Origin: Nocardioides scoriae
GTDB lineage: Bacteria > Actinomycetota > Actinomycetes > Propionibacteriales > Nocardioidaceae
NCBI RefSeq assembly: GCF_900104965.1
Contig: NZ_LT629757.1
Coordinates: 3,410,001 to 3,474,000, forward strand
DNA: 64,000 nucleotides
Direction of reading: 5' to 3'
Shown here: positions 39,967-59,282 of the stretch, in pieces
Layout: every line of letters begins with the position of its first letter
Position numbering within the stretch: position 1 is the stretch's first letter
Made by a program: the position numbers and the translations under genes
Notes under the pieces: model-generated
Seen by the model: only the letters and a program-made list of their open reading frames with translations
Told to the model about the DNA's origin: nothing
Database searches by the model: none

Positions 39967-40662
39967 ATGAGCACAGCGGCCGCCCTGCTGCGGCGAGCAG
40001 GGGTCAAGGCCAGCCGGTCGGTCGTGCGGTGGTCGACGCGGACCACCCCGCGGGGCGACCTGGTGCGCCTGGGCAGCGAGTACGGCGGTTGGTGGGTGCC
40101 TGCCGACCTGATCGGTCGCGACTCGACCTGCTACCTCGCCGGCGTGGGGGAGGACGTGACCTTCGACCTCGCCCTCGTGGACCGCTTCGGGTGCGAGGTG
40201 TGGGCCATCGACCCCACGCCACGGGCGATCGAGCACGTCGCCACGATCACCGAGCCGCGCTTCCACCTGCTGCCCATCGGGCTGTGGGGCAGCGACACCA
40301 CGCTGGGGTTCCACGCCCCCGCCGACCCCACCCACGTCTCGCACTCGGCGACCAACATGCAGCGCACCGCCGTGTCCTTCGAGGCGGAGTGCCGGACCGT
40401 CCGGTCGGTCATGGCCGACCGGGGCCACGTGCGCCTCGACCTGCTGAAGCTCGACATCGAGGGGGCCGAGGTGCCGGTGCTCGAGGACCTGCTGGCCCAC
40501 GGGCCCCTGCCGCGCGTGCTGTGCGTGGAGCTCGACGCGCCCGAGGCGCCCCACCGGACCTGGGGTCGGCTCCGTCGCCTGCGAGCGGCGGGCTACGTCT
40601 GCCGCCGGGTGGAGGGTCGCAACTACACCTTCACCCGGGAGCAGGACGCGGCGAGCTCCTGA
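39967..40662 (+). CDS. FkbM family methyltransferase
   Basis: This 231-residue protein has an FkbM C-terminal core: LDLLKLDIEGAEVPVLEDLL near residue 160 and CVELDAP after it. An earlier VWAIDPTPRAIEHV stands in for the SAM-binding acidic strand, while the usual DVGANxG glycine motif is replaced by LAGVGEDVTFDL. It could be a glycan O-methyltransferase or a non-methylating relative. It lies alone between the GAF gene and convergent mshD, 6 kb from the glycan cluster. Confidence 0.8.
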   Translation: MSTAAALLRRAGVKASRSVVRWSTRTTPRGDLVRLGSEYGGWWVPADLIGRDSTCYLAGVGEDVTFDLALVDRFGCEVWAIDPTPRAIEHVATITEPRFHLLPIGLWGSDTTLGFHAPADPTHVSHSATNMQRTAVSFEAECRTVRSVMADRGHVRLDLLKLDIEGAEVPVLEDLLAHGPLPRVLCVELDAPEAPHRTWGRLRRLRAAGYVCRRVEGRNYTFTREQDAASS

Positions 40663-45931: not shown

Positions 45932-46660
45932 TCAGACCGGCTCCCATCGCGGGTAGTAGCAGAAGTCGGCGGGGCACAGCACGCGGTCGGCCTCGGACAG
46001 GAAGGCCGCCCAGTAGCTGAACCACGAGAACGACATCACGACCTGGTCGTGGGCGGCCAGGTGCAGCAGGTCCTGGCGGACCGTTCCTCGGGCCGGCCGC
46101 ACGTCGCGGCCGGGGAAGCGTCGCCCGAAGTGCGCGACGAGTGCGTCCACGTCGCCGTCGGTGAAGACGGTGAGGGGCCGGTGGTCCCCGGCGGGGAGCA
46201 ACCGGTCGAGCGCAGCGTCGTAGAAGTCGAGGGGCAGGGGGTACCCCGCGTCGTCCTGACGCACGTGCACCCCGACCCCGTCGACCCGGGCGGGCCGGTC
46301 GCGCTCGGACCCCAGGAGCTCGGTGAGCAGCTGGTCCCGGAACTCGTCGACCCGGGTGAACACGCCCGACCAGTCCAGGACGCGGTAGCGGCTGCGGTGC
46401 GTGCCCGTCTCCGGTGCCAGGTGGCCCGTGACGTTGAAGCTGGTGTCCCAGTCGTGCCCCGCGAGGCGTCGGTAGCGCCCGGACGCCGCGGCCCCCAGGT
46501 CGCCGAGCCGGGTGCGCACCCGGGAGTAGTCCATGGGGAAGTGGTCCACCGGCACGTGCAGGTAGTCCCAGCCGTAGCGCAGCGACAGCGTCCGCGCGCA
46601 CGCCCACAGCTGCAGCTGGTTGCCCGACCGGCCGGAGGGCCGGAACGTGATCGAGTCCAC
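45932..46660 (-). CDS. Divergent GT11-like (alpha-1,2-fucosyltransferase-related) protein
   Basis: This 242-residue protein keeps the outline of GT11 enzymes with altered key motifs. GRSGNQLQLWACARTL stands for the usual GGLGNQMFQ start, VGVHVRQDDAG for HxRxGDY, and VVMSFSWFSYWAAFLS for SNSTFSWWAAWL. It may use GDP-fucose or another GDP-sugar. The GTG at 46660 has GGGAGG upstream, deciding against a start at 46723. It faces away from the rest of the plus-strand glycan genes and is much shorter and less canonical than the GT11 gene at 51520. Confidence 0.7.
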   Translation of the reverse strand: MDSITFRPSGRSGNQLQLWACARTLSLRYGWDYLHVPVDHFPMDYSRVRTRLGDLGAAASGRYRRLAGHDWDTSFNVTGHLAPETGTHRSRYRVLDWSGVFTRVDEFRDQLLTELLGSERDRPARVDGVGVHVRQDDAGYPLPLDFYDAALDRLLPAGDHRPLTVFTDGDVDALVAHFGRRFPGRDVRPARGTVRQDLLHLAAHDQVVMSFSWFSYWAAFLSEADRVLCPADFCYYPRWEPV

Positions 46661-46908
46661 CGGTCCTCCCGTCGTGCCCGAGGAGCGCAGGGGCGCCGGT
46701 GGGACGCCCTCGCGCGGGCCCAACCTCTCACGGCGCGGCGGCGTGGCGTGGGACCCACGGGACCGCGCGACCCCGGTCGTGTCCCCCTCCCCACCGGTGG
46801 CGGTGACCTAGACTCCGGTGGCGATCTGGATGGCCAGGCCACCGCCGTGCCGCTCGGTGCACGACCGGGACCGGTGGCGGGCGCCGAGCGGGACGAGCAT
46901 GGGAGTTC

Positions 46909-48261
46909 GTGGTGGACCTGGGCCTCAGCCTGGCGCGGCTCGCGTGGTCCCTGCTGCCCGTACTGGCCGTGCTCGCCGTGGTCGGCCTCGTCCTGGTGAG
47001 CGCTCCGTCCCGCCGGTTCTTCCGGTCCTTCGCGAGCGCCGACGGCCCCCTCACCTGGTGGATCATGCTCGGTCTGCTCCTGCTGCAGGTGCTCGTCGGG
47101 GCCGTGGAGCGCCGACCGACCGGCGCCTCGCCCTTCCTCGGCGTCCCCGTGGTGGGCCAGCTGCTCGCCCCCGTGTACGGCGACCGCCTGATGGTCCTCG
47201 TGCTGGCCGGCGGGCTGCTGGCCGCCGCGTACGCCCTGTTCCTGCGCGCCGCCACCACCCCGGCAGCGCTCCTGCTGCTGGCCTGGGCGGGCCTCACGGT
47301 CGTGGTCACGGTGGTCGTCACGGACTCCGTCGCGTCCTCGACGTGGCTCGCCTTCGCGGCCGCGGCTGCGTGCTTCGTCGCCGTCGCCCTCCTCGCCACG
47401 GGGATCACCACCCGTCACGCCGACGTCGTGCTGCTCTCGCTGGGCGCCGTGCTGGTCGTCGGCAACCTGTACGTGCTCCACGCCGGGTCGGCGTGGGCGT
47501 TCACCGACGCGTGGAGCGGCGGGTTCCTCGCCGGCCCGCGGTTCCAGGGCACGCTGCCCCAGCCCAACGTGACCGGTCAGGTGTTCGCCTGCGTGCTGGT
47601 CCTGGCGCTGTGGACCCGGCGGGAGCGCCCCCTGGTCTGCTGGGCGCTCGCGGCGGGCAGCGCCTACCTGGTCTACCTGAGCGGGTCGCGGGGCGCGGTC
47701 GTCCTGCTCCTGGGTGTCGTGGCGATGGCCGTGTTCCGGCACGCCAGCGGGGCGTGGCGCTCGGTCGCCGGGACGGCTGCGGTGGGACTGGCCGTCGCGC
47801 TCCCGCTGAGCGGTCTGGCGAGGTCGGCGGTCGTCAACGGCCGGGAGGTCACCTGGGACGACGCCTTCGCGCTGATCGCCCGCTCCCCGGCCCTCGGGTC
47901 CGGCGTGTTCCCGGTGGTCGGGCCGGTCGACAGCGCCGGGTTCTACGCCCACAACCAGGTCCTGCAGACCGCCACCGAGACCGGCCTGCTCGGTGTGCTG
48001 CTCGTGTGCGGCGCGATGGTGCTGCTGGTCCGCTCCCGCACCGGGGCGAGGGGGACCGACGTCTGGGTGGCCCTCGTGTTCGGCGTGCTCCTCACCTTCA
48101 GCTTCGAGAACCCGGTCCGCCTGTTCTCACCCGAGTTCGGGCTGATCCCGTGCCTGGTCGCCATCGCCGCCGGGGTCGCAGGTCGTCGGGCTCCGGCCGA
48201 GTCGCCTCCCGGGGCCGCCACCGGTGACGCCCAGGTCCCGCAGCTGCAGGGGAGGGCCTGA
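46909..48261 (+). CDS. O-antigen ligase/Wzy-like polymerase
   Basis: This 450-residue membrane protein has about twelve hydrophobic segments and the Wzy_C/WaaL-type periplasmic region. That region includes QPNVTGQVFA, YLSGSRGAVVLLLG (the conserved SGSRG) and AHNQVLQTATETGLLG (the conserved H-N...G). Such proteins polymerise lipid-linked repeat units or attach them to an acceptor. It opens the plus-strand glycan operon, and the ABC exporter starts 1 bp after its stop. The start may be GTG 46909 or GTG 46912. Confidence 0.88.
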   Translation: MVDLGLSLARLAWSLLPVLAVLAVVGLVLVSAPSRRFFRSFASADGPLTWWIMLGLLLLQVLVGAVERRPTGASPFLGVPVVGQLLAPVYGDRLMVLVLAGGLLAAAYALFLRAATTPAALLLLAWAGLTVVVTVVVTDSVASSTWLAFAAAAACFVAVALLATGITTRHADVVLLSLGAVLVVGNLYVLHAGSAWAFTDAWSGGFLAGPRFQGTLPQPNVTGQVFACVLVLALWTRRERPLVCWALAAGSAYLVYLSGSRGAVVLLLGVVAMAVFRHASGAWRSVAGTAAVGLAVALPLSGLARSAVVNGREVTWDDAFALIARSPALGSGVFPVVGPVDSAGFYAHNQVLQTATETGLLGVLLVCGAMVLLVRSRTGARGTDVWVALVFGVLLTFSFENPVRLFSPEFGLIPCLVAIAAGVAGRRAPAESPPGAATGDAQVPQLQGRA

Positions 48262-48262
48262 C

Positions 48263-49951
48263 GTGGCCGGCCCCCGCGTCCCCCCGTGGAGGAGGGCCTA
48301 CCGGCCGTTCGTGCAGCTCGAGCGTCGCCGGTTGTGGCAGGGCGGTGCGCTCACCGTGGGGGCGGCGGTCGCGGAGGCGCTCGGACTGGCGATCCTCGGC
48401 TTCGCCGCGACCCGCACCTCGATGACGGACACGGGCCTGGTGCTGGTCGCGGCCGGCATCGGTGCGTCGCTGGCCCTCTCGGCGGTCGTCCGGGCCGCGG
48501 GCGAGCGTGCCCTGGCCTCGACCCAGATCCACCTGGAGAGGCAGCTGCGCCACCGGCTGTCGGGCGCGGTGCTGGGGTCGGACTGGCAGGACTTCGTCGA
48601 CCAGCCCGGGCACGAGCTCCAGAGCGCCCTGCTCGCGGAGTCACCGCAGGTCGCCACGGCCACCGTCACCTACGTCCGCAGCGTCGCGTCGCTGGCGTCC
48701 GCCGCGGTGGTGTTCGTCGCGGCCTTCGTGGTCTCGGTGCCGGCCGCCGCCGTGAGCGCCGTCTTCGGCATCGCGATCGCGTACGCCTACGGCCGGGCCA
48801 GCCGTGGGCTCGGGGAAGCGCAGAACCGCCTCGCCGACAGCACCGTGCTCATCACCCGCCACACGGCCATCCTGGTCAACGGGCTGCGGTCGCTGCGGCT
48901 CTCGCCGGTGCTGCACGCGTGGCGTGCCGACCTCGACGCGGCGTACGACGCGCAGGCCGCGGCCCGCCACCAGGACATGTGGATCCCGATCCGGGCCCGG
49001 CTCGTCGTGGAGGTGATGGGAGCGCTGATGGTCTTCGGCGTCCTCGCCGTCCAGGGCGCGGTCTCCGGCGACATCCTGCCGGGCCTCGTGGTGATGGCGA
49101 TGATCCTGCGCGTGCTGCCCCGGCTGCAGGCCGCGCAGCAGGCACGGTCCTACGCCCTCCACAGCGAGGTGTGGCTGCGACGCTGGGACGCCCGGCTGGA
49201 CGCGGTCGGCCGGCACGCGCTGCCGAGCGCGACTGCCGAGGCGGACGGGACGGGCGCGGCCCGTGGTCCGGGGGCCCCGCTGCTGGAGTTCCGCGACGTC
49301 TCGTTCCACTACCGCTCCCACGACACCCCCGTCCTGGACCACGTCGACCTCGTCGTGGGGGAGGGCGAGTGGACGTGCCTGGTCGGGGCGTCGGGGGGTG
49401 GCAAGTCGACGCTGGTCGACATCGCCGGTGGCCTGCTCGTGCCGACGCGCGGTCGGGTCCTCCTGCGCGGTCGCGACCTGCGCAGCCTCGACGTCGACGA
49501 GCTGCACTCGCAGGTCGTGGTGGTGCCCCAGGACATCCACCTCGTGGGGGCGAACCTGCGCGAGGCGCTCACGTGGGGCGGGCGGCTGCCCACCCCGGAG
49601 CGCTTCGACGAGATCTGCCGCCACCTCGGCATCACCGAGATGTTCCTCCACTCCTCGGTCACCTTCGACAGCAAGCTCGACGAGCTGGGACGAGACATCT
49701 CGGGTGGCATGCGGACACGTCTGGCGATCGCCCGGGCGCTGATGTCCGGCCCCGCCGTGCTCGTGCTGGACGAGTCCACCTCGAGGCTGCCCCCGGCGAC
49801 CGAGGCGGCGATCTTCGAGGACATCCGCCGCTCCACCCCCGACCTGGCGGTGGTCGTCGTGACGCACCGCCACGAGACGGCCCACAGCGTCGGGGCGGTG
49901 GTGCGGCTCGAGTCGGGCCGGCTCGTCGTGGGGCTGGGGGCGGGGGGCTGA
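48263..49951 (+). CDS. ABC exporter half-transporter (fused membrane and ATPase domains)
   Basis: This 562-residue protein has six predicted helices (about residues 25-290) and then an ATPase domain: Walker A GASGGGKST, signature DISGGMRTRLAIARAL, Walker B AVLVLDES and H-loop VVTHRHET. The architecture matches MsbA/Wzk-type lipid-linked glycan flippases. The signature (ISGGM instead of LSGGQ) and D-loop (STSRLPPATE instead of SALD) are unusual, which may mean reduced or asymmetric ATPase function. Its place between wzy-like and glycosyltransferase genes suggests it flips the lipid-linked repeat unit made here. Confidence 0.85.
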   Translation: MAGPRVPPWRRAYRPFVQLERRRLWQGGALTVGAAVAEALGLAILGFAATRTSMTDTGLVLVAAGIGASLALSAVVRAAGERALASTQIHLERQLRHRLSGAVLGSDWQDFVDQPGHELQSALLAESPQVATATVTYVRSVASLASAAVVFVAAFVVSVPAAAVSAVFGIAIAYAYGRASRGLGEAQNRLADSTVLITRHTAILVNGLRSLRLSPVLHAWRADLDAAYDAQAAARHQDMWIPIRARLVVEVMGALMVFGVLAVQGAVSGDILPGLVVMAMILRVLPRLQAAQQARSYALHSEVWLRRWDARLDAVGRHALPSATAEADGTGAARGPGAPLLEFRDVSFHYRSHDTPVLDHVDLVVGEGEWTCLVGASGGGKSTLVDIAGGLLVPTRGRVLLRGRDLRSLDVDELHSQVVVVPQDIHLVGANLREALTWGGRLPTPERFDEICRHLGITEMFLHSSVTFDSKLDELGRDISGGMRTRLAIARALMSGPAVLVLDESTSRLPPATEAAIFEDIRRSTPDLAVVVVTHRHETAHSVGAVVRLESGRLVVGLGAGG

Positions 49952-49952
49952 G

Positions 49953-50726
49953 GTGACGGCTCGGCTCACGGTCGTGATCCCGACCCGCGCGGACGGCCGC
50001 GGTCTCGACCGGGCGATCGCCTCGGTGCTCGGGCAGGGCGTCGACCTGGCCGTGGTCGTCGTCCTCGACGGGACGAGGGCGACGAGCAGCGTGGACGACG
50101 AGGCGCTGCGCGACCTCGTCGCAGCGGGTCACCACGTCGTCGCGCCCGGCCACCAGGGTCGTCCGGGTCCCCTGCGCAACCTCGGCCTCGCGCTCAGCGC
50201 CACGCCGTACGTCGGGTTCCTCGACGACGACGACGTGTGGGCCCCGACGAAGGCGGAGACCCAGCTGGCCGTCCTGGACGCTGCGCCCGAGGTCGTCCTG
50301 GTCGGGAGCGATGCGACGGTGGTGCTGCCGTCCGGGCCCCGCGGTACCTACTTCGACGGCACGGCGCCGTCCGTGGTCCGCCTGCGGGAGGAGATCGACA
50401 CCAACTGGCTGATCACCAGCTCCGTGATTGCGAGAACCCGCTCGCTCGTGCGGGTTGGTGGGTTCGGCCTCGCGCCCGATATGAGATTCTTCGACGACTA
50501 CGTGGCTTGGCTGAAGCTGCTGACCCTGGGCGAGGGGATGATGGTGCAGGAAGCTCTCGTGGACTACGCGTCGGGCAACCAGGCGTCGCTGTCCGCCTCC
50601 GACCCCCAGGCCGGGCGCACCGTCCGGCGGCACGCGCTCGAGCACTTCCTCACCGACGCCGCCGACCTCGACCTCGTGATCTCGCGGCGCGACCGCCGTC
50701 GCATCGCGCGCCACCTGCGCCCGTGA
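49953..50726 (+). CDS. Family 2 glycosyltransferase
   Basis: This 257-residue GT-A enzyme has the GT2 start TVVIPTRADGRGLDRAIASVLGQ, RNLGLALSATPYVGFLDDDDVW (the DDD metal-binding motif near residue 92) and a C-terminal acceptor region with FFDDYVAWLK. It has no membrane segments. It starts 1 bp after the ABC gene stop, and its stop overlaps the start of the GT6 gene (GTGA). Donor and acceptor sugars are unknown. Codon use around 50400-50540 is slightly less GC-rich than its surroundings. Confidence 0.9.
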   Translation: MTARLTVVIPTRADGRGLDRAIASVLGQGVDLAVVVVLDGTRATSSVDDEALRDLVAAGHHVVAPGHQGRPGPLRNLGLALSATPYVGFLDDDDVWAPTKAETQLAVLDAAPEVVLVGSDATVVLPSGPRGTYFDGTAPSVVRLREEIDTNWLITSSVIARTRSLVRVGGFGLAPDMRFFDDYVAWLKLLTLGEGMMVQEALVDYASGNQASLSASDPQAGRTVRRHALEHFLTDAADLDLVISRRDRRRIARHLRP

Positions 50727-51523
50727 GCGCTGCCACGACGGCGGGCCCGCGGGTGTCGCTCATCGTCATCGCCACCGGCCGCTACCTGTCCTTCCTCGAG
50801 CCCCTGCTGGTCTCGGCCCGCCGCCACGTCGTGGGCCTGGACCGGGTCTTCGTGCTCTCCGACCTCCGGCCACCCGACGACCCGACGGTGCAGTGGCTTC
50901 CCTGGGGACACCTGCCCTGGCCCTACCCGACCCTGCTCCGCTACCGAGCGATCTCGGCGTACCGCCGCGTGCTCGAGCAGACCGACGTCCTGCTCTACGT
51001 CGACGTCGACATGCTGTTCGTCGGCACCTTCGACGTCAGCGCGACGGCCGGTCTGGTGGCCGTCCGCCACCCCGGATTCGCCGAGTCCTCGCGGGCACAG
51101 CTCCCCTACGAGACCGATGTCCGCTCACGGGCGTTCGTCCCGCCCGAGCTCGGCACCGTGTACGTCGCCGGCGGCGTCCAGGGCGGCCGGGCGGGCGACT
51201 ACCTCGACGCCTGCGAACTGATGGCGGAGGAGGTGCAGCTCGACCTCGACGGGGGGATCGTCCCGACGTGGCACGACGAGAGCGTCTGGAACGCCTTCTG
51301 CGCCCGCCGTCCCCCCGACACCCTGCTCTCGGTCCACCACTGCACCCCCGAGAAGGAGGTCGGCCCCGAGACGCTCCTGGTCGCGCTGGACAAGGACCAC
51401 GACCACTTCCGGGAGGTGCCGCACCTCGAGCGCGCCCGCCGTCGGCTGCTGCAGCAGCTGCAGCGCGTCCGGGCGGCGGTGGTCCGGGCCGTGCGGCCGG
51501 CGGTGAGGGTGGTCCGCCGGTGA
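50723..51523 (+). CDS. GT6-family glycosyltransferase (ABO blood-group type)
   Basis: This 266-residue protein aligns by eye with GT6 enzymes such as human ABO transferase. ATGRYLSFLEPLLVSARRH is the start, YVDVDMLFVG carries the DxD motif, AVRHPGFAESSR corresponds to LHPGFYGSSR, and YVAGGVQGG to YLGGFFGG. PTWHDESVWNAF corresponds to VWHDESHLN. GT6 enzymes add GalNAc or Gal in alpha-1,3 linkage, usually to galactose that already carries alpha-1,2-fucose. The donor-specificity triad here reads AGG (LGG in A, MGA in B), and glycine at the third place is compatible with GalNAc. It overlaps both neighbours by 4 bp, including the GT11 fucosyltransferase. Bacterial GT6 enzymes I recall have NxN instead of DxD. 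Confidence 0.85.
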   Translation: MSAATTAGPRVSLIVIATGRYLSFLEPLLVSARRHVVGLDRVFVLSDLRPPDDPTVQWLPWGHLPWPYPTLLRYRAISAYRRVLEQTDVLLYVDVDMLFVGTFDVSATAGLVAVRHPGFAESSRAQLPYETDVRSRAFVPPELGTVYVAGGVQGGRAGDYLDACELMAEEVQLDLDGGIVPTWHDESVWNAFCARRPPDTLLSVHHCTPEKEVGPETLLVALDKDHDHFREVPHLERARRRLLQQLQRVRAAVVRAVRPAVRVVRR

Positions 51524-52353
51524 CCCACGTGCGGCTCATGGGGGGCCTGGGCAACCAGCTGTTCCAGCTGGCAGCCGGGCTGCACCTCCAGCAGGAGCTC
51601 GGCCTCCCGGTGCGCTGGGACCGGTCGTGGTTCCGCGAGCCGGCCGCGGGGGACACCCACCGCCACCTCGAGCTCGACGGGGTCGTGCCACGTCGTCAGC
51701 TGAGCGGCGGGTCGCGGTGGGCCGCTCGGCTCGCCTGGTCCGGCCGCAACCCCCGGTTGCTCCGGGAGCGCGGCCCCCACCACGACCTGCTGGCCAGCAG
51801 CGAGGTGGACCGCCACTCGTGGCTGGAGGGCTACTTCCAGTTCGGCACCTACCCGGTCCAGGTCGAGGCGACGCTGGCCGAGCTGCTCCGACCTCGCCTG
51901 GGCGGTGCCGCCGGGCAGTGCGGCCCCGACGACGTCGCCGTCCACGTCCGGCTCGGCGACTACCACGCCAACCCCGTCACGCGACGCCACCACGGCCTGC
52001 TCGAGCCGGACTGGTTCAGGCGGGCGCTGGGGCTCGTCCCCGACGTCGGCGAGCGCCGGCTCGTGGTCTTCACCGACTCCCCGGACGTCTTCGAGGAGGA
52101 GTACGCCGCGTCCCTGCCCGGGCGCCACGTGGTCTCGCCGACCCAGACCGCCTGGGACACCCTGGACGAGATGAGCCGCTGCGGCACGATCGTGATGTCG
52201 AACAGCTCGCTGTCCTGGTGGGCGGCGTTCCTGGCCCGCACCCGGCACCCGGGTGGGGCCGAGGTCCTCCACCCGGTGCCGTGGTTCGCCGAGCCCGGGG
52301 CCGCCGACCAGCACATGCCCCTCGACTCCTGGACGGCGGTGCCCCGTGACTAG
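51520..52353 (+). CDS. GT11 alpha-1,2-fucosyltransferase
   Basis: This 277-residue enzyme has the three GT11 motifs intact: MGGLGNQLFQLAAG at about residues 7-20, VAVHVRLGDYHANP near 145 and IVMSNSSLSWWAAFLA near 223. GT11 enzymes transfer fucose from GDP-fucose, usually in alpha-1,2 linkage to galactose, forming an H-type structure. GDP-fucose can be made by gmd and fcl at 57.3-59.3 kb. The gene overlaps the GT6 gene by 4 bp and the following GT2 gene by 8 bp. Confidence 0.92.
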   Translation: MTHVRLMGGLGNQLFQLAAGLHLQQELGLPVRWDRSWFREPAAGDTHRHLELDGVVPRRQLSGGSRWAARLAWSGRNPRLLRERGPHHDLLASSEVDRHSWLEGYFQFGTYPVQVEATLAELLRPRLGGAAGQCGPDDVAVHVRLGDYHANPVTRRHHGLLEPDWFRRALGLVPDVGERRLVVFTDSPDVFEEEYAASLPGRHVVSPTQTAWDTLDEMSRCGTIVMSNSSLSWWAAFLARTRHPGGAEVLHPVPWFAEPGAADQHMPLDSWTAVPRD

Positions 52354-53260
52354 CCCGGGCCCTCGCGTCGAGGACCCGACCCACGTCGTCGTGGTGTGCA
52401 CGCGCAACCGGCCCGACGACATCGGCGTCGCCCTGGACTCGCTCGTGGGCCAGTCGCTCGCCCCCACGGAGGTGCTGGTCGTGGACTCGAGCGACGACAC
52501 CGCGACCGAGCGGGTGATCGGCGCACGGTCCTTCCCGTTCCCGGTGCGCTACCTGCACAGCGAGCCCGGGCTGACCCACCAGCGCAACGTCGGGGTCGCC
52601 GCCTCCTCCGCCGACGTCGTGCACTTCATCGACGACGACGTGGTGCTCGCGGACGACTACCTCCGGGAGGTGGTGCGCAGCTTCGTCACCGGAGGCCCGG
52701 ACGTCGTGGGCGTGGGAGGGCTGATCGCCTCCACCACGACGCGACGACCGCGGTGGTGGTGGCGGGCCGCCCTGGTCGACTCCCGTCGCCAGGGGTGCGT
52801 GCTGAGCTCCGGCGTCAACATCCTGGTGACCGAGCTGGCCGACGAGACCGACGTCGAGTGGCTCTCGGGCTGCTCGATGTCCTACCGCCGCCGGGTCTTC
52901 GACGAGCTCGCCTTCGACGAGGCGCTGCAGGGCTACGCCCTGATGGAGGACGTCGACTTCTCCTACGGCGCCGCGCGTCTGGGGCGCCTGGTGCTCAACC
53001 CGGCTGCTGGGCTCACCCACACGGTCTCCGACGTCGGCCGGTGGGACCACCACCGGCGGGTCACGGTCGGGGTGCACCGCCGGGGCTGGTTCGTCGAGAA
53101 GCACCTGCCCCGGCGGGCCCTGGTCGCGTTCGTGTGGAGCGTGGTGGCGGGGGCGGCCGTGCACGCGGTCCTCGGGGTCCTGACGCTCTCGCGCTGGCGG
53201 GTGCGGGTGGCCGGCTGGCAGCTGCAGGCGCTGGGCCAGTTCTTCCGCGGGCGTCGCTGA
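52346..53260 (+). CDS. Family 2 glycosyltransferase with C-terminal hydrophobic region
   Basis: This 304-residue GT2 enzyme has VVVVCTRNRPDDIGVALDSL near the start, FIDDDVVL (DDD motif) near residue 93, and DVEWLSGCSMSYRRRVFDE with LMEDVDFSYGAARLG (the ED-type catalytic base region). The last 60 residues form a membrane-associated helix pair (FVWSVVAGAAVHAVLGVLTL). It ends the plus-strand run and converges on the minus-strand GT genes with a 19-bp gap. Donor and acceptor are unknown. Confidence 0.9.
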   Translation: MTSPGPRVEDPTHVVVVCTRNRPDDIGVALDSLVGQSLAPTEVLVVDSSDDTATERVIGARSFPFPVRYLHSEPGLTHQRNVGVAASSADVVHFIDDDVVLADDYLREVVRSFVTGGPDVVGVGGLIASTTTRRPRWWWRAALVDSRRQGCVLSSGVNILVTELADETDVEWLSGCSMSYRRRVFDELAFDEALQGYALMEDVDFSYGAARLGRLVLNPAAGLTHTVSDVGRWDHHRRVTVGVHRRGWFVEKHLPRRALVAFVWSVVAGAAVHAVLGVLTLSRWRVRVAGWQLQALGQFFRGRR

Positions 53261-53279: not shown

Positions 53280-54155
53280 TCAGCGCAGCCGGCCCACGAG
53301 GGTGCGGAGCTCCGCGCGCACCACCTGCTGGCGGGCGCGGGCCTCCGCGTCACCCCGTCGCGCGCGCCGCACCGACCCCCAGGCGCGGGCTCCGACCGCG
53401 AGCGCGACCCGTGCCCGTCCCCAGGGGTGTTCCTCGCGGGTGACGCTCGCCCAGGCGTCCGCGGCCCGACGGGCGCGGTCGAGCACCCACCCGAGCTCGC
53501 GGCGGTCGGGCGTCACGTCCTCCTGCGCCGCGGCTCCCGCGACGTGCCGGATGTCGGCACCTGCACGGCGCAGCCGGGTGAACAGCTCGGTGTCCTGCCC
53601 CATGCCCTGGGCGAAGGTCGCCGCGTAGCGGCACTCGGGCCGTGCCAGCACGGCTGCGGGGAGCAGGACGTTGCCGTCGCCCGACATCGGGACCCGGGCG
53701 CCGTCGGGGTGGTCCGGCCGTCGCCACGGCCAGCCGCCGGCAGCCCAGTCCGGCACGTCGAAGCCCAGGTCGGGCTGCACCGGACCGCTGAGGATGGCCT
53801 CCGGCCACCGTGCGTGGGCCCGCAGGAACGCCTGGTACCAGCCCGGCGCCGGAGCCTGGTCGTCGTCGAAGAAGACGAGCGCGACGACCGGACCGCCCAG
53901 CTCGCGGGCGAAGCCCAGCGCCCGGTTGCGTGCGTTGCCGACCCCGCGGCGCGGTTCGACGACGTAGGCGGCCCCGACGCTCTCCGCCACCGGGCGGGCC
54001 GAGCAGGACGGGTCGTTGTCGACCACCAGGAGCAGCGTGCGCACGTCGGCGGCCGCGGTCTGCTCGCCCACGGCGGCCAGCGTCCGGCGCAGCTGCTCGG
54101 GGCGCGCGTAGGTGCAGGTCGCCACCACGACCGTCCCCTGCTCCCCGGCCGTCAC
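53280..54155 (-). CDS. Family 2 glycosyltransferase
   Basis: This 291-residue GT2-like protein has TVVVATCTYARPEQLRRTLAAV at the start and LLLVVDNDPS. GVGNARNRALGFA and VFFDDDQAPAPGWY (DDD metal site near residue 90) follow, then a C-terminal helical region with MGQDTELFTRLRRAG. The GTG start overlaps the upstream GT4 stop by 4 bp. It is the last gene of the minus-strand glycan operon. Confidence 0.88.
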   Translation of the reverse strand: MTAGEQGTVVVATCTYARPEQLRRTLAAVGEQTAAADVRTLLLVVDNDPSCSARPVAESVGAAYVVEPRRGVGNARNRALGFARELGGPVVALVFFDDDQAPAPGWYQAFLRAHARWPEAILSGPVQPDLGFDVPDWAAGGWPWRRPDHPDGARVPMSGDGNVLLPAAVLARPECRYAATFAQGMGQDTELFTRLRRAGADIRHVAGAAAQEDVTPDRRELGWVLDRARRAADAWASVTREEHPWGRARVALAVGARAWGSVRRARRGDAEARARQQVVRAELRTLVGRLR

Positions 54156-55228
54156 GAGAGCGCCGCCTCGATGCCACCGGCGAAGCGCTCGACCATGTGG
54201 TCCAGCGAGTAGCGCGCGTGCGAGACGACGCAGCCCTCGCGCAGCCGTGCGACCCGATCGGGGTCGAGCAGCAGCTCCTCGACGGCAGCAGCGAACTGGT
54301 CCGGTGAGCCCTCGCCCGGGACCACGACGCCGTTGACGCCGTCGTCGAGGTACTCGATCTCGGGGCTGTGGTGCGGGTAGTCCGTCGTCACCAGGGGTGA
54401 TCGCGCGGCGAACGAGTCGATGACCGCCAGCCCGACCAGGCCTGGCATCAGCATCAGCGAGGCCCGGGCCACGACGTCGACCTTGGCCGGTCCGGTGAGC
54501 GGCCCGTGGCACTCCAGCCACGGGCTCCACGACGCGCGTTCCTCGACGAGGGGCCGCAGCGGGCCGTCGCCGACGACGTCGAGGTGGAAGCCCGGCACCC
54601 GCCGGGACAGTGCCTCACCGGCGTCGAGGAGCACCTCGACGCGCTTGTAGCGGTGGAGGGTGCCGACGAAGACGCACGTGGTCGGACGCTTCCCGGGCTC
54701 GGCGGGGTAGGCGTCGGTGTCGGTGCTGTTGTCGACGACGCAGATGCGGGAGGCGGGGAAGCCGGTGGCGCGCACGCGCGCGGCCGACCCCTCGGTGTAG
54801 GCGAACCACCAGTGGGGCGCGCGCGCCGTCCGGGCCTTGAACCGCTCGGCTGCGGAGCGCGCGTGGGCGGTCTGCAGGTTGGCCCCGTGACCCCAGAAGG
54901 CGAGGCGCTGCCGGCCCCGGGCCGCCCGGAGGAGCAGCGGGTAGTTCGCGAGCATCCGGTTGGCGTGCTCCACCACGACGAGGTCGGCCGCCCGGGTCCG
55001 CTGCCGGACCTGCTGCCACACCAGGCTCCCGGCAGGCGTCGCCACGTGACGGACCGGGACCCGCTCGGCCCAGGCCGACCCCTCGACCTGGCGGGACACC
55101 TCGGGGGTCACGACCGAGTGCAGCACGCGCAGTCGCACCCCGACCCCGGCCAGACGTCGGTCCAGCCGGTCGAAGAAGGCCACGCGGTAGTGGGGGAGGA
55201 CCTCCTGGACCACGGCCACCTCAGCCAC
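54152..55228 (-). CDS. Family 4 glycosyltransferase (GT-B)
   Basis: This 358-residue GT-B enzyme has a C-terminal GT1/GT4 domain with CVFVGTLHRYKRVEVLLDA near residue 185 and VVGDGPLRPLVEE near 225. LMLMPGLVGLAVIDSFAARSPLV, quoted for location, replaces the usual EGFGxxxxEA motif. The N-terminal half starts VAVVQEVLPHYRVAFFDRL. It overlaps the upstream GT4 gene by 8 bp. The altered donor-site motif (MPGLVGLAVIDSFA) may change donor preference. Confidence 0.87.
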   Translation of the reverse strand: MAEVAVVQEVLPHYRVAFFDRLDRRLAGVGVRLRVLHSVVTPEVSRQVEGSAWAERVPVRHVATPAGSLVWQQVRQRTRAADLVVVEHANRMLANYPLLLRAARGRQRLAFWGHGANLQTAHARSAAERFKARTARAPHWWFAYTEGSAARVRATGFPASRICVVDNSTDTDAYPAEPGKRPTTCVFVGTLHRYKRVEVLLDAGEALSRRVPGFHLDVVGDGPLRPLVEERASWSPWLECHGPLTGPAKVDVVARASLMLMPGLVGLAVIDSFAARSPLVTTDYPHHSPEIEYLDDGVNGVVVPGEGSPDQFAAAVEELLLDPDRVARLREGCVVSHARYSLDHMVERFAGGIEAALS

Positions 55229-56372
55229 GGGTGGCCACCCGGTGCGACCGGATCGCGTCGGCGTACACGTCGAGCAGCCCGCGGAGCCAGACCTCGGGGG
55301 AGAACGCCTCGCGGTGGCGTGCGGTCGCCGACGCGGAGCAGGCGTCCCACGACTGCTCGACCCGCTCGAGCGCCGCGGCGACCTGCGTCGGCTCGTGGTA
55401 GACCAGCCCCGTGCCGTGGCGCTCGACGTCGTCGGCCACGGAGCTGCCTGCGGCCGCGACCACGGGCACACCGTGGGCCAGGGCCTCGGCGTACACCAGG
55501 GGCGAGCCCTCCAGCCACACGCTGGGGAACACCAGCCCGCGGGCCCGGCCCAGGATCCCGGACACGGCCGACGTCGGCACCGACCCGTGCACGCGCACGC
55601 CCGGGGGAGCCAGCTGCACCACGCGGTCGCGCAGCGGGCCGTCACCGTAGACGTCGAGGGCGTGGGCGGCCGGCCAGTGGGGCAGCACCTGGTCGAGCCC
55701 CTTCTCGGCGCTCAGCCGGCCGAGGTAGACCCAGCCCTCCCGGGGGACCCGCGGGTCGCGGGCCTCGGGCCGCGGGACGAAGTTGGGGAGGCAGCGCAGC
55801 TTCTCGGGGGCGACGCCCAGGTCCGAGAACGTTCGGCGCGCCACCTCGGAGAGCACGATCACCCGGGTGCTGCGACGCACCAGCGCGGTGTCCTCCGCCG
55901 GGCGCCGGGTGGCGATCGCCAGCGGGACGGAGGCGAGCCGTGACCCGCGGTAGCAGGCGTGCCGCACGGCCGACAGCGACGTCCCCCGCGGGCAGTCGTC
56001 GCACGGCCGGCCGTCGCGGGTCAGGGTGCCGGCGGCACAGACGCTCCTGAAGTTGTGCAGGGTGGTCACCAGCGGCCCGGTCCAGGTGGACAGCCACCGC
56101 CGGCCCCAGTTGGGGAACAGGTTGTGCACGTGGACGACGTCCGGGCCGAAGGCGTGCAGGGCCCGGACGGGAGACGGCCCGACGCCGGTGGCCGTGCTGG
56201 CGCCGGCTCGCACGGCGTACCCGGGCCGGGAGCGCAGGTCGTCCGTGCGCCGTGCCACCACCAGCACCTCGTGGCCCGACCGGCGCAGCAGCGTCGCCTG
56301 CTGGTCGACGGCGGTGTTCTCGCCGCTGGGCTGGTCCTCGCCGTAGTAGCTGTGCACGAGAGCGACCCGCAT
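55221..56372 (-). CDS. Family 4 glycosyltransferase (GT-B)
   Basis: This 383-residue GT4 enzyme begins MRVALVHSYYGEDQPSGENTAV. Its N-terminal domain has VVHVHNLFPNW and a Cys-rich loop CAAGTLTRDGRPCDDCPRG typical of polysaccharide GT4s. Its donor domain has WVYLGRLSAEKGLDQVLP, DVYGDGPLRDRV and FPSVWLEGSPLVYAEALAHGVPVV (the E-x7-E motif). The ATG overlaps the stop of the TagA-like gene by one base. It acts in the cytoplasm on lipid-linked intermediates; sugar specificity is unknown. Confidence 0.9.
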   Translation of the reverse strand: MRVALVHSYYGEDQPSGENTAVDQQATLLRRSGHEVLVVARRTDDLRSRPGYAVRAGASTATGVGPSPVRALHAFGPDVVHVHNLFPNWGRRWLSTWTGPLVTTLHNFRSVCAAGTLTRDGRPCDDCPRGTSLSAVRHACYRGSRLASVPLAIATRRPAEDTALVRRSTRVIVLSEVARRTFSDLGVAPEKLRCLPNFVPRPEARDPRVPREGWVYLGRLSAEKGLDQVLPHWPAAHALDVYGDGPLRDRVVQLAPPGVRVHGSVPTSAVSGILGRARGLVFPSVWLEGSPLVYAEALAHGVPVVAAAGSSVADDVERHGTGLVYHEPTQVAAALERVEQSWDACSASATARHREAFSPEVWLRGLLDVYADAIRSHRVATRG

Positions 56373-57118
56373 CAGCGCCGCCGGTCGCGCGCCACGCCGA
56401 GCAGGAAGCGCACGTGGCCCACGCTGTAGCGGTGCCACAGCCGCCGGGGCTCGTGCGCGAGGCGGAACACCCACTCGAGCCCGGTCCCGCGCAGCCACCG
56501 CGGCGCCTCCCGAGCGGTGCCCGCCCAGAAGTCGAAGGCAGCGCCGACGGGGACGACGGGGACGTCCAGCAGCTCGCCCAGGGCCGGCACGACGTGGTCC
56601 TGTCGCGGGGTGCCGAGTCCGATCCACAGGACCTGTGCCCCGGCGTCCCGCACCCGGTCGGCGAGCTGCTCGAGGGCCTCGTCGTCCACCGGGCCGAAGG
56701 GCGGGCTCTCGGTGCCGACGACGGACGCTCCCGGGTAGGCCTCCACCAGCCGCTCCGCCATGAGCTCGGCCACGCCGGGCCCGGCCCCCCAGAAGAAGTG
56801 GCTCACCTGGCGGGCGCGGCCGCGGTCGACCACCTCGCCGACGAGGTCCGGGCCCCGCACCGGGCCTCGGGTCCCCTGGTGCCGGCCCAGCCAGGCCGCC
56901 GGCGCGCCGTCGGGGAGGTTGAGGTCACCGGCGTCCAGGGACGACCGCAGCCGGTCGTCGCGCTCGACCAGGGAGAGGGTGAAGGCGTTGCACAGGTGCA
57001 CCTGGAGGCCTCGTCCGGCGATCGCCGCCTCCACGATGATCTCGGCGCCCCGCCCCAGGGTCGCGGCGTGGAGCTCCACGCCGCAGACCGTGTAGGTGGG
57101 AGCGAGATCGACCGGCAT
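56372..57118 (-). CDS. WecG/TagA/CpsF family (GT26) glycosyltransferase
   Basis: This 248-residue protein has the GT26 signatures LCNAFTLSLVERD, LNLPDGAPAAWLG (the conserved D-G with catalytic aspartate) and VLWIGLGTPRQDHVVP. GAAFDFWAGTAREAPRWLRGTGLEWVFRL, quoted for location, makes up the C-terminal membrane-binding part. Members add a second sugar such as ManNAc or ManNAcA to undecaprenyl-PP-GlcNAc. It is first in the minus-strand operon and divergent from gmd across 140 bp, so a shared promoter region controls both halves. Confidence 0.92.
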   Translation of the reverse strand: MPVDLAPTYTVCGVELHAATLGRGAEIIVEAAIAGRGLQVHLCNAFTLSLVERDDRLRSSLDAGDLNLPDGAPAAWLGRHQGTRGPVRGPDLVGEVVDRGRARQVSHFFWGAGPGVAELMAERLVEAYPGASVVGTESPPFGPVDDEALEQLADRVRDAGAQVLWIGLGTPRQDHVVPALGELLDVPVVPVGAAFDFWAGTAREAPRWLRGTGLEWVFRLAHEPRRLWHRYSVGHVRFLLGVARDRRR

Positions 57119-57258: not shown

Positions 57259-58305
57259 ATGTCAGTGGCGACCAAGGCCCTCATCACGGGGATCACGGGC
57301 CAGGACGGCTCCTACCTGGCCGAGCTGCTGCTGGGCAAGGGATACGAGGTCCACGGGCTCATCCGCCGCGCCTCGACCTTCAACACGCACCGCATCGACC
57401 ACCTCTACCTCGACCCGCACGACAGCGACAACCGGCTGCACCTGCACTACGGCGACCTGTCCGACGGGGCGCGGCTGGTCACGCTGATGCACGAGATCGA
57501 CCCCGACGAGGTCTACAACCTCGCGGCGCAGTCGCACGTGCGGGTCAGCTTCGACGAGCCCGAGCACACCGGCGACACCACCGGCATCGGCGCCATGCGG
57601 CTGCTCGAGGCGGTGCGGGTCGCCGGCGTGAAGTGCCGCTACTACCAGGCCTCCAGCTCGGAGATGTTCGGGGCGACCCCGCCGCCGCAGCACGAGGGCA
57701 CCCCGTTCCACCCGCGCTCGCCGTACGGCGCCGCGAAGGTCTACGCCTACTGGGTGGCCCGCAACTACCGCGAGGCCTACGGCCTGTTCGCCGTCAACGG
57801 CATCCTGTTCAACCACGAGTCGCCGCGCCGGGGCGAGACCTTCGTGACGCGCAAGATCACCCGGGCCGTCGCCCGGATCCAGGCCGGGGTCGAGAGGGAC
57901 CTCTACCTCGGCAACCTGGACGCCGTGCGCGACTGGGGCTACGCGCCGGAGTACGTCGAGGGCATGTGGCGGATGCTCCAGGCCGACGAGCCGGAGGACT
58001 TCGTGCTGGCCACGGGAGGCAACTTCACGGTGCGCGACTTCGTCGTGACGGCGTTCGAGCACGCCGGCCTCGACTGGGAGGCGCACGTGAAGTTCGACGA
58101 GCGCTACCTGCGCCCCTCCGAGGTGGACGCGCTGGTCGGCGACGCGAGCAAGGCCCAGGACAAGCTGGGCTGGAAGGCGCAGGTCGACACCGCCCAGCTC
58201 GCCCGCATCATGGTCGACGCCGACATCGAGGCGCTGCGGCACGAGGGCGGCTCCTGGATCGACCACCCGGCGCTGCCCGGCTGGCCCACGATCGACGTCC
58301 GGTGA
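57259..58305 (+). CDS. gmd: GDP-mannose 4,6-dehydratase
   Basis: This 348-residue SDR-fold enzyme converts GDP-mannose to GDP-4-keto-6-deoxymannose, the first step to GDP-fucose. The NADP motif is [16 protein letters not shown], the SASSSEMFG-type ASSSEMFG lies near residue 133, and the catalytic Tyr/Lys lie in [29 protein letters not shown] and [13 protein letters not shown] are Gmd-specific. GAAGGGAC precedes the ATG. Its stop overlaps the fcl start (GTGA), so the two GDP-fucose enzymes are made together. Confidence 0.97.
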
Positions 58306-59282
58306 GCGAGCAGCCGGACTTCCGGCCGGGCCCCCTCGACCGGTCGGCCACGACGTACGTCGCCGGGCACCGCGGCCTGGTCGGGTCGGCGATCTGGCGC
58401 ACCCTGGAGGCCGAGGGCTTCACCGACCTGGTCGGTCGTGGCTCCGACGAGCTCGACCTCAAGGACCGGTCGGCCGTCCTCGCCTTCTTCGAGGAGACCC
58501 GTCCGCGCCACGTCGTCCTCGCGGCGGCGAAGGTGGGCGGCATCCTGGCCAACAGCACCTACCCGGCCGACTTCCTGTCGGAGAACCTGCAGATCCAGGT
58601 CAACGTCATGGACGCGGCGCTGGCCCAGGGGGTGGAGCGGCTGCTGTTCCTGGGGTCGTCGTGCATCTACCCCAAGCTGGCCGAGCAGCCCATCACCGAG
58701 GACAGCCTGCTCACCGGGCACCTCGAGCCCACCAACGACGCCTACGCGATCGCCAAGATCGCCGGGATCCTCCAGGTGCAGTCGGTGCGTCGCCAGCACG
58801 GCCTGCCGTGGATCTCCGCGATGCCGACCAACCTCTACGGCCCCGGTGACAACTTCTCGCCGACGGGCTCCCACGTGCTGCCCGCCCTGATCCGCCGCTA
58901 CGACGAGGCGGCCCGGTCGGGAGCGGAGTCGGTGACCAACTGGGGGACCGGGGCGCCGCGGCGCGAGTTCCTCCACGTCGACGACATGGCGGCGGCCTGC
59001 CTGCACCTGCTGGAGCACTACGACGGCCCCGAGCAGGTCAACGTCGGCACCGGACGCGACGCCACGATCGCCGAGATCGCCGGGTACGTCGCCGAGGCCG
59101 TGGGCTTCGAGGGGTTGACCGAGTGGGACACCTCCAAGCCCGACGGCACCCCGCAGAAGCTGCTCGACGTCAGCAAGCTCGCGGCCGCGGGGTGGACCTC
59201 GCAGATCGGCCTGCGGGAGGGCATCGCCTCGACCGTGGCGTGGTACCGCGAGCACGTCGGGCACCTGCGAGAGGCCGGCTGA
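58302..59282 (+). CDS. fcl: GDP-L-fucose synthase
   Basis: This 326-residue epimerase-reductase turns GDP-4-keto-6-deoxymannose into GDP-L-fucose. It has [12 protein letters not shown] for [19 protein letters not shown] with catalytic cysteine and serine, and [12 protein letters not shown] with the Tyr/Lys pair. [14 protein letters not shown] is the Fcl hallmark. With gmd it supplies the donor for the GT11 fucosyltransferases encoded 5-12 kb away in the same locus. The GTG start is coupled to gmd by 4 bp. Confidence 0.97.

Follow-up and report, generated by a model that had tools for sequence, protein, structure and literature searches.

Can a soil-type actinobacterium be equipped to make a blood group A-like glycan? 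The question is raised by a 64,000-nucleotide stretch of Nocardioides scoriae DNA (contig NZ_LT629757.1, positions 3,410,001 to 3,474,000; hereafter the window, whose own numbering is used throughout), in which a glycosyltransferase family 6 (GT6, ABO-type) gene overlaps a family 11 (GT11) gene. We find that the two form a true pair, in a conserved surface-glycan cluster that also has genes for the supply of GDP-fucose. The best explanation, to which in its full form we assign a probability of about 0.58, is that they decorate a surface glycan with an A-like branch, i.e. fucose added by the GT11 and alpha-1,3-linked GalNAc (or Gal) added by the GT6.

50723..51523, + strand: GT6 (ABO-type), predicted retaining alpha-1,3-Gal/GalNAc transferase; 266 aa, GTG start
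51520..51523, + strand: GTGA stop/start overlap of GT6 and GT11; 4 bp, read from the sequence
51520..52353, + strand: GT11 family, putative alpha-1,2-fucosyltransferase; 277 aa, GTG start, motif I HVRLGDY, NSSLSWW motif

A GT6 of the DXD type

The first protein belongs to GT6 by profile, by sequence and by fold. It scores 75.9 bits against PF03414 (cut-off 25), being the sole match to that profile in the 4.06-Mb genome, and its PDB sequence matches include BoGT6a of Bacteroides ovatus (E 3e-23) and human ABO transferase (E 2e-19), with identities to both sets of structures of ~27-29%. The AlphaFold model (mean predicted local distance difference test score, pLDDT, 94.3) has the GT-A fold of GT6 structures; in a Foldseek search the nearest solved structures were BoGT6a (template modelling score, TM, 0.82-0.87) and the human ABO transferases, with all 50 of the PDB matches listed being one or the other. 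Both the profile search and the structure prediction thus keep the 266-residue protein inside GT6, where the preliminary description had put it, and the HPGF, WHDES and GG...GG motifs it pointed to are all present. The score against NCBIfam NF041524, 114.5 bits, falls short of the curated 250, but this is a narrower subfamily model that does not define CAZy GT6.

Residues were mapped by HMMER alignment onto the UDP-GalNAc complex of BoGT6a, for which a residue list has been published (PMC3961637). The key sites of the N. scoriae enzyme are a DVD metal motif (94-96), a donor triplet AGG (149-151), the catalytic WHDE (183-186), K224 and R230. The BoGT6a contacts Y13, W66, T70, R73, H122, G157, W189-E192 and K231 are retained as Y21, W66, T70, R73, H116, G151, W183-E186 and K224, respectively, such that the WHDE(S) and donor-binding residues are conserved apart from the equivalents of N69 and T134, both of which are Pro. 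N95-A96-N97 of BoGT6a corresponds to D94-V95-D96, i.e. the motif is DXD and not NXN, and R230 occupies the site of R365 in bovine alpha3GT, six residues past the conserved Lys; an Arg of this type is conserved in most metal-dependent GT6s but missing from the bacterial GT6s described up to that point (PMC3961637). On the basis of D94-V95-D96 and R230, the enzyme is predicted to need Mn or Mg. It is of the DXD type, which phages and vertebrates have, whereas the Bacteroidota type is NXN.

With respect to the donor, the triplet (positions 266-268) is AGG in BoGT6a too, a GalNAc enzyme, and it has been argued that GalNAc use calls for a Gly at one of positions 266 and 268 (PMC4692239); the triplet therefore points to GalNAc as donor. 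Two GalE-type epimerases are encoded in other parts of the genome, and would be a putative source of UDP-GalNAc if able to act on UDP-GlcNAc. Our proposal of an A-like branch draws in part on the assignment to GT6, which profile, sequence and fold all support, and on the conserved UDP-GalNAc residues and AGG.

The GT6 also has a basic amphipathic C-terminal helix (residues 233-265; charge ~+10 over 35 residues, hydrophobic moment 0.52, shuffle p 0.03), which phage GT6s lack and which, speculatively, may be a membrane anchor.

A GT11 with an altered motif I and a GDP-fucose supply

The second protein scores 46.1 bits against PF01531 (cut-off 23.9). Its model (pLDDT 92.5) has a GT-B fold near those of GDP-fucose-using fucosyltransferases, although with TM values of only ~0.4 and with WaaC ranked first, followed by NodZ, POFUT1, AtFUT1 and FUT8. 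A PDB sequence search with the protein alone matched nothing and an NCBIfam scan matched no model, whereas a profile built from 34 GT11s gave a weak match to FUT8 (E 0.004). The family assignment in the preliminary description stands, but in calling the protein canonical it claims more for an alpha-1,2-fucosyltransferase than the sequence allows: motif I reads HVRLGDY and not the HxRRxD of alpha-1,2-fucosyltransferases. Across the 34 aligned GT11s the second Arg of this latter motif shows conservation of at least 90%; its site is occupied by Leu in the GT11s of N. scoriae, of Nocardioides sp. PD653-B2 and of a further genome of the same genus (G013), and by Arg (HVRRGDY) in that of a carrier from another family (G992).

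The fucose donor would be provided by two adjacent genes, 5.7-7.8 kb downstream of the pair.

57259..58305, + strand: gmd, GDP-mannose 4,6-dehydratase; TIGR01472 505.5 bits, cut-off 415 (open reading frame, ORF, scanned from 57199)
58302..59282, + strand: fcl, GDP-L-fucose synthase; NF047922 446 bits, curated cut-off 500

The identity of Gmd is certain, and that of Fcl very likely, the next competing family scoring 65 bits; the nearby GDP-fucose supply claimed in the preliminary description is thus supported. It is the GT-B fold with GDP-fucose enzymes among the best matches, the FUT8 profile match and the presence of gmd and fcl that support fucosylation by the GT11; alpha-1,2 transfer from GDP-fucose is what the family and gmd/fcl suggest. 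The GT11 might instead move another 6-deoxy-hexose from a GDP-sugar, or form a linkage other than alpha-1,2, in which case the determinant would be merely ABH-like. HVRLGDY in place of HxRRxD, the lack of any matching NCBIfam model and the presence in the family of an alpha-1,3-fucosyltransferase, HhFT2 (PMC4202792), are all consistent with such a deviation; we nevertheless consider it distinctly unlikely, given that the cluster combines an fcl-like gene with a gmd that scores above its cut-off, and that the more distant carrier, G992, combines HVRRGDY with a gmd-containing cluster.

The genome has one GT11 above cut-off and one weak GT11-like gene, at the opposite end of the cluster. This second gene is very divergent (HVRQDD, SFSWF); with 18 bits, under the Pfam cut-off, it was rejected as a fucosyltransferase.

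A probable surface-glycan cluster

The remaining genes of the cluster are as follows.

45932..46723, - strand: GT11-like protein (HVRQDD, SFSWF); 18 bits, below the Pfam cut-off
46909..48261, + strand: Wzy_C / O-antigen ligase-like membrane protein (polymerase or ligase); Pfam 34.4 bits, cut-off 31.7
48224..49951, + strand: ABC transporter combining membrane and ATPase domains in one protein, probably a flippase/exporter of lipid-linked oligosaccharide; Pfam 89 bits
49953..50726, + strand: GT2 family glycosyltransferase, GT2a; Pfam 41 bits, 4-bp overlap with GT6
52346..53260, + strand: GT2 family glycosyltransferase, GT2b; Pfam 65 bits, 8-bp overlap with GT11
53280..54155, - strand: GT2 family glycosyltransferase, GT2c; Pfam 36.6 bits, start trimmed
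54152..55228, - strand: GT4 family glycosyltransferase, GT4a; Pfam 66 bits, start trimmed
55221..56372, - strand: GT4 family glycosyltransferase, GT4b; Pfam 58.9 bits, start trimmed
56372..57118, - strand: WecG/TagA/CpsF (GT26), early step on a lipid-linked intermediate; Pfam 155 bits, TIGR00696 108 bits (above cut-off)

A + strand run of Wzy-like, ABC, GT2a, GT6, GT11 and GT2b genes is followed by a - strand block (53280-57118) of GT2c, GT4a, GT4b and WecG, after which gmd-fcl are again on the + strand. NCBIfam matches of the ABC protein include MsbA/PglK-type models, all below cut-off. Judged by its families, the locus resembles those that make a lipid-linked oligosaccharide or polysaccharide and move it by an ABC-type flippase/exporter, and the Wzy-like protein, the ABC flippase/exporter, WecG/TagA and the several glycosyltransferases agree with the surface-polysaccharide locus proposed in the preliminary description. 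The 4-bp GT6/GT11 overlap to which that description drew attention is real, but overlaps of 4 bp also join GT2a to GT6 and gmd to fcl; because short overlaps are common in the cluster, that of GT6 and GT11 marks an operon and co-transcription, not a special pair.

Linkage of GT6 and GT11 in Actinomycetota

GT6 is rare in Actinomycetota, with carriers making up 2/24 genomes of the genus, 3/342 of the family Nocardioidaceae, 1/396 of a phylum sample and 2/395 of a class sample (the last by protein query). In each of the four actinobacterial carriers found, no more than 2.1 kb separates the GT6 from a GT11, in three different arrangements, whereas a GT11 of any kind occurs in 25/297 genomes of the class. 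In the window and in PD653-B2 (L007) GT6 is followed by GT11; in G013 the GT11 comes first and overlaps the GT6 by 8 bp, within a distinct cluster of low GC content at third codon positions (GC3); and in G992 a divergent GT6 has a GT11 at a distance of 2.0 kb, the cluster also containing gmd, WecG, ABC and GT2 genes. When the genus members and PD653-B2 are taken together, 3/3 GT6 carriers have a GT11 versus 2/21 non-carriers, and the counts for Fcl are the same (hypergeometric p ~0.005 each, calculated by hand and ignoring kinship).

The PD653-B2 cluster is syntenic with that of the window in its entirety (WecG-GT4a-GT2c-GT2b-GT11-GT6-GT2a-ABC-Wzy-GT4b-FkbM) and adjoins the same housekeeping genes (DUF1416, sseA and DUF4395). 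Identity between the two is 32-67% within the cluster versus 72-86% outside it; the gmd-fcl pair of PD653-B2, on a separate contig, is 81-83% identical. GC3 in the PD653-B2 cluster (L007 117-11992) is 0.64-0.71 versus 0.91-0.96 in its flanks, a contrast suggestive of replacement or import; the + strand cluster genes listed for the window are native-like (0.92-0.95). Low identity and the GC3 contrast, with synteny retained, imply that the cluster is old or was replaced, and has been kept.

The FkbM methyltransferase gene lies inside the cluster in PD653-B2 (L007:11333-11992) and ~5 kb away from it in the window (39967-40662), beyond sseA.

These findings make the linkage in actinobacteria more than chance, since all four GT6 loci have a nearby GT11, in three arrangements, against a GT11 frequency of only 25/297.

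GT6 in Bacteroidota and viruses

A GT6 search of a plasmid collection gave two matches only, both from Bacteroidota. In the two Bacteroidota records examined, from Phocaeicola (L095) and Prevotella (L096), GT6 and GT11 again occur together, the GT6s being of the NXN type and each overlapping a downstream GT11 (by 4 and 19 bp, respectively).

GT6 is encoded by at least 469 viral contigs. In the 49 dereplicated viral loci (within L013-L092) every GT6 has DXD, and 23/49 have a GT11 within 2 kb. However, cyanophage loci sampled through GT25 showed no association of GT6 with GT11 (p 0.76), and in a phage control GT11 stood immediately beside GT6 in 9/49 loci versus beside GT25 in 7/79 (p 0.10). Co-occurrence in phages in general is thus no more than background, and we dropped it as proof of a partnership. 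From the virus data only a fusion protein was kept as evidence for pairing, beside the bacterial loci: a 975-aa ORF (L091:5362-8289; IMGVR_UViG_3300049846_002561) with the domain order GT2-GT6-GT11-GT7C, the first three domains of which match the operon order GT2a-GT6-GT11. This viral ORF may encode a synthase of the ABH type in one polypeptide chain.

The phage controls are what might be expected if GT6 stood next to GT11 by chance, both simply being glycosyltransferases of a sugar cluster. For the actinobacterial loci this explanation is scarcely credible, in view of the 4/4 linkage against a rate of 25/297, the three arrangements and the long-kept synteny.

Two further fusions were noted, i.e. 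of GT6 with GT2 in a 642-kb phage genome (L009:3269-4861; LR756502.1) and of GT6 with an FkbM methyltransferase in a viral contig (L035:6004-7503).

Origin of the GT6

The GT6s of the window, PD653-B2 and G013 form one clade (support 100/96), the sister of which comprises GT6s of two high-GC viral contigs, L035 and L074 (100/95); the Bacteroidota NXN enzymes and human ABO are placed elsewhere in the best tree, and the G992 GT6 has no settled place. Approximately unbiased (AU) tests reject neither a forced clade of the actinobacterial enzymes with ABO (p 0.35) nor one with those of Bacteroidota (p 0.23). In the sequence tree the nearest sampled relatives are environmental viral-contig GT6s and not vertebrate ones, while the AU results leave more than one deep order standing. 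Of the independent or transferred origin suggested in the preliminary description, the separation from vertebrates is supported by the best tree; the AU test leaves a clade with ABO standing.

Capture of the gene from an animal, which would account for DXD and R230 as in the vertebrate enzymes and which the AU result tolerates, is nonetheless very improbable: the best tree does not favour it, setting the actinobacterial GT6s beside L035/L074 and apart from ABO, identity to the ABO structures is low, and DXD is shared by all 49 dereplicated viral GT6s.

Proposed product

The families, folds, motifs and conserved gene linkage described above suggest the following route, of which the donors and acceptor, the linkages, the sequence of the steps and the display at the surface are our inference. 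The locus would make a fucosylated cell-surface oligosaccharide or polysaccharide, the lipid-linked unit of which would be assembled by WecG with the GT2 and GT4 enzymes. Using GDP-L-fucose provided by Gmd and Fcl, the GT11 would attach alpha-L-fucose to a residue that is probably galactose; the GT6, as a Mn/Mg-dependent enzyme, would next place GalNAc (or, with lower probability, Gal), alpha-1,3-linked, on the residue carrying the fucose, the result being a blood group A-like branch. The ABC protein would then flip the unit, and the Wzy-like protein polymerise or ligate it. That the GT6 and GT11 act jointly is supported by the 4/4 linkage, the synteny with PD653-B2 and the viral GT2-GT6-GT11-GT7C fusion.

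Several observations weigh against this proposal, including, in addition to the altered motif I of the GT11, the replacement of N69 of BoGT6a, a uracil contact, by Pro69, and that of T134, which contacts the acceptor O6', by Pro128, a residue common to the GT6s of the window, PD653-B2 and G013. These two prolines mean that the acceptor may differ from the H disaccharide. Among the GT2 and GT4 genes, moreover, no supplier of a beta-galactose acceptor can be named, and the lack of association in cyanophages indicates that GT6 does not always act on a fucosylated acceptor.

It may accordingly be that GT6 and GT11 work on different residues of one glycan, the GT6 acting in an alphaGal- or Forssman-like manner on an unfucosylated sugar, with no ABH determinant being formed. 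The Thr to Pro change at the O6' contact in the three related actinobacterial enzymes, the cyanophage GT6s without an associated GT11, and the inclusion of alpha3GT and Forssman enzymes in the family (PMC3961637) all fit this alternative. We regard it as rather unlikely, because close GT6/GT11 linkage recurs in actinobacteria and in both Bacteroidota records, and because the two domains are fused in the L091 protein. An A-like branch built by both enzymes on one residue remains the preferred reading.

Relation to known systems and implications

Animal-like pairs of A/B and H enzymes are not new in bacteria, being known from E. coli O86, Helicobacter mustelae and Bacteroides ovatus (PMC4202792, PMC3961637). 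In E. coli O86, WbnI (GT6, B antigen) and the alpha-1,2-fucosyltransferase WbwK follow the same logic of GT11-H then GT6-A/B (PMC4202792); that system, compared here through its published description, makes a Gram-negative O antigen of known product, whereas the N. scoriae product is predicted from genes. BoGT6a, a UDP-GalNAc:2'-fucosyllactose transferase (PDB 4ayj/4cj8), shares AGG, WHDE and the Lys near the C terminus with the N. scoriae enzyme, but is NXN and metal-independent, whereas the latter has DVD and R230, Pro for T134 and N69, and the basic C-terminal helix. Human GTA/GTB (GT6) and FUT1/FUT2 (GT11) represent the same two families, with DXD, HPGF and WHDES as here; GTA/GTB, however, are type II membrane proteins with an N-terminal anchor, and have LGG (A) or MGA (B) at 266-268 in contrast to AGG. 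The GT6s of phages and environmental viruses (P-SSM2, B23 and IMG/VR contigs) are like the N. scoriae enzyme in having DXD, are ~29-42% identical to it and are its nearest neighbours in the tree, but reside in phage genomes and, in cyanophages, are not tied to GT11.

Bacterial GT6 has been published almost only from Gram-negatives and in the NXN form (36 species with one exception), with two DXD bacterial enzymes known by 2014 (PMC3961637); our literature search found nothing direct on actinobacterial GT6 or on phage GT6/GT11. Such pairs are known from gut bacteria; the one described here is a somewhat divergent further example, notable for the DXD type of its GT6 and for its soil-type actinobacterial host, a setting in which they had scarcely been met. 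A wider proposal, which we offer tentatively and consider possible but on balance doubtful, is that free-living Actinomycetota own a long-maintained A-like surface glycan made via a DXD (metal-dependent) GT6 from the environmental/viral branch and a GT11 with an altered donor motif, and that a GT2-GT6-GT11-GT module, fused into one protein in one viral contig, has been exchanged with phages.

The occurrence of paired DXD GT6/GT11 genes in soil-type actinobacteria, together with hundreds of viral GT6s, bears both on the origin of vertebrate ABO enzymes and on non-gut sources of ABH-like antigens. The predicted metal-dependent bacterial ABO-type enzymes may also be on offer for glycan synthesis.

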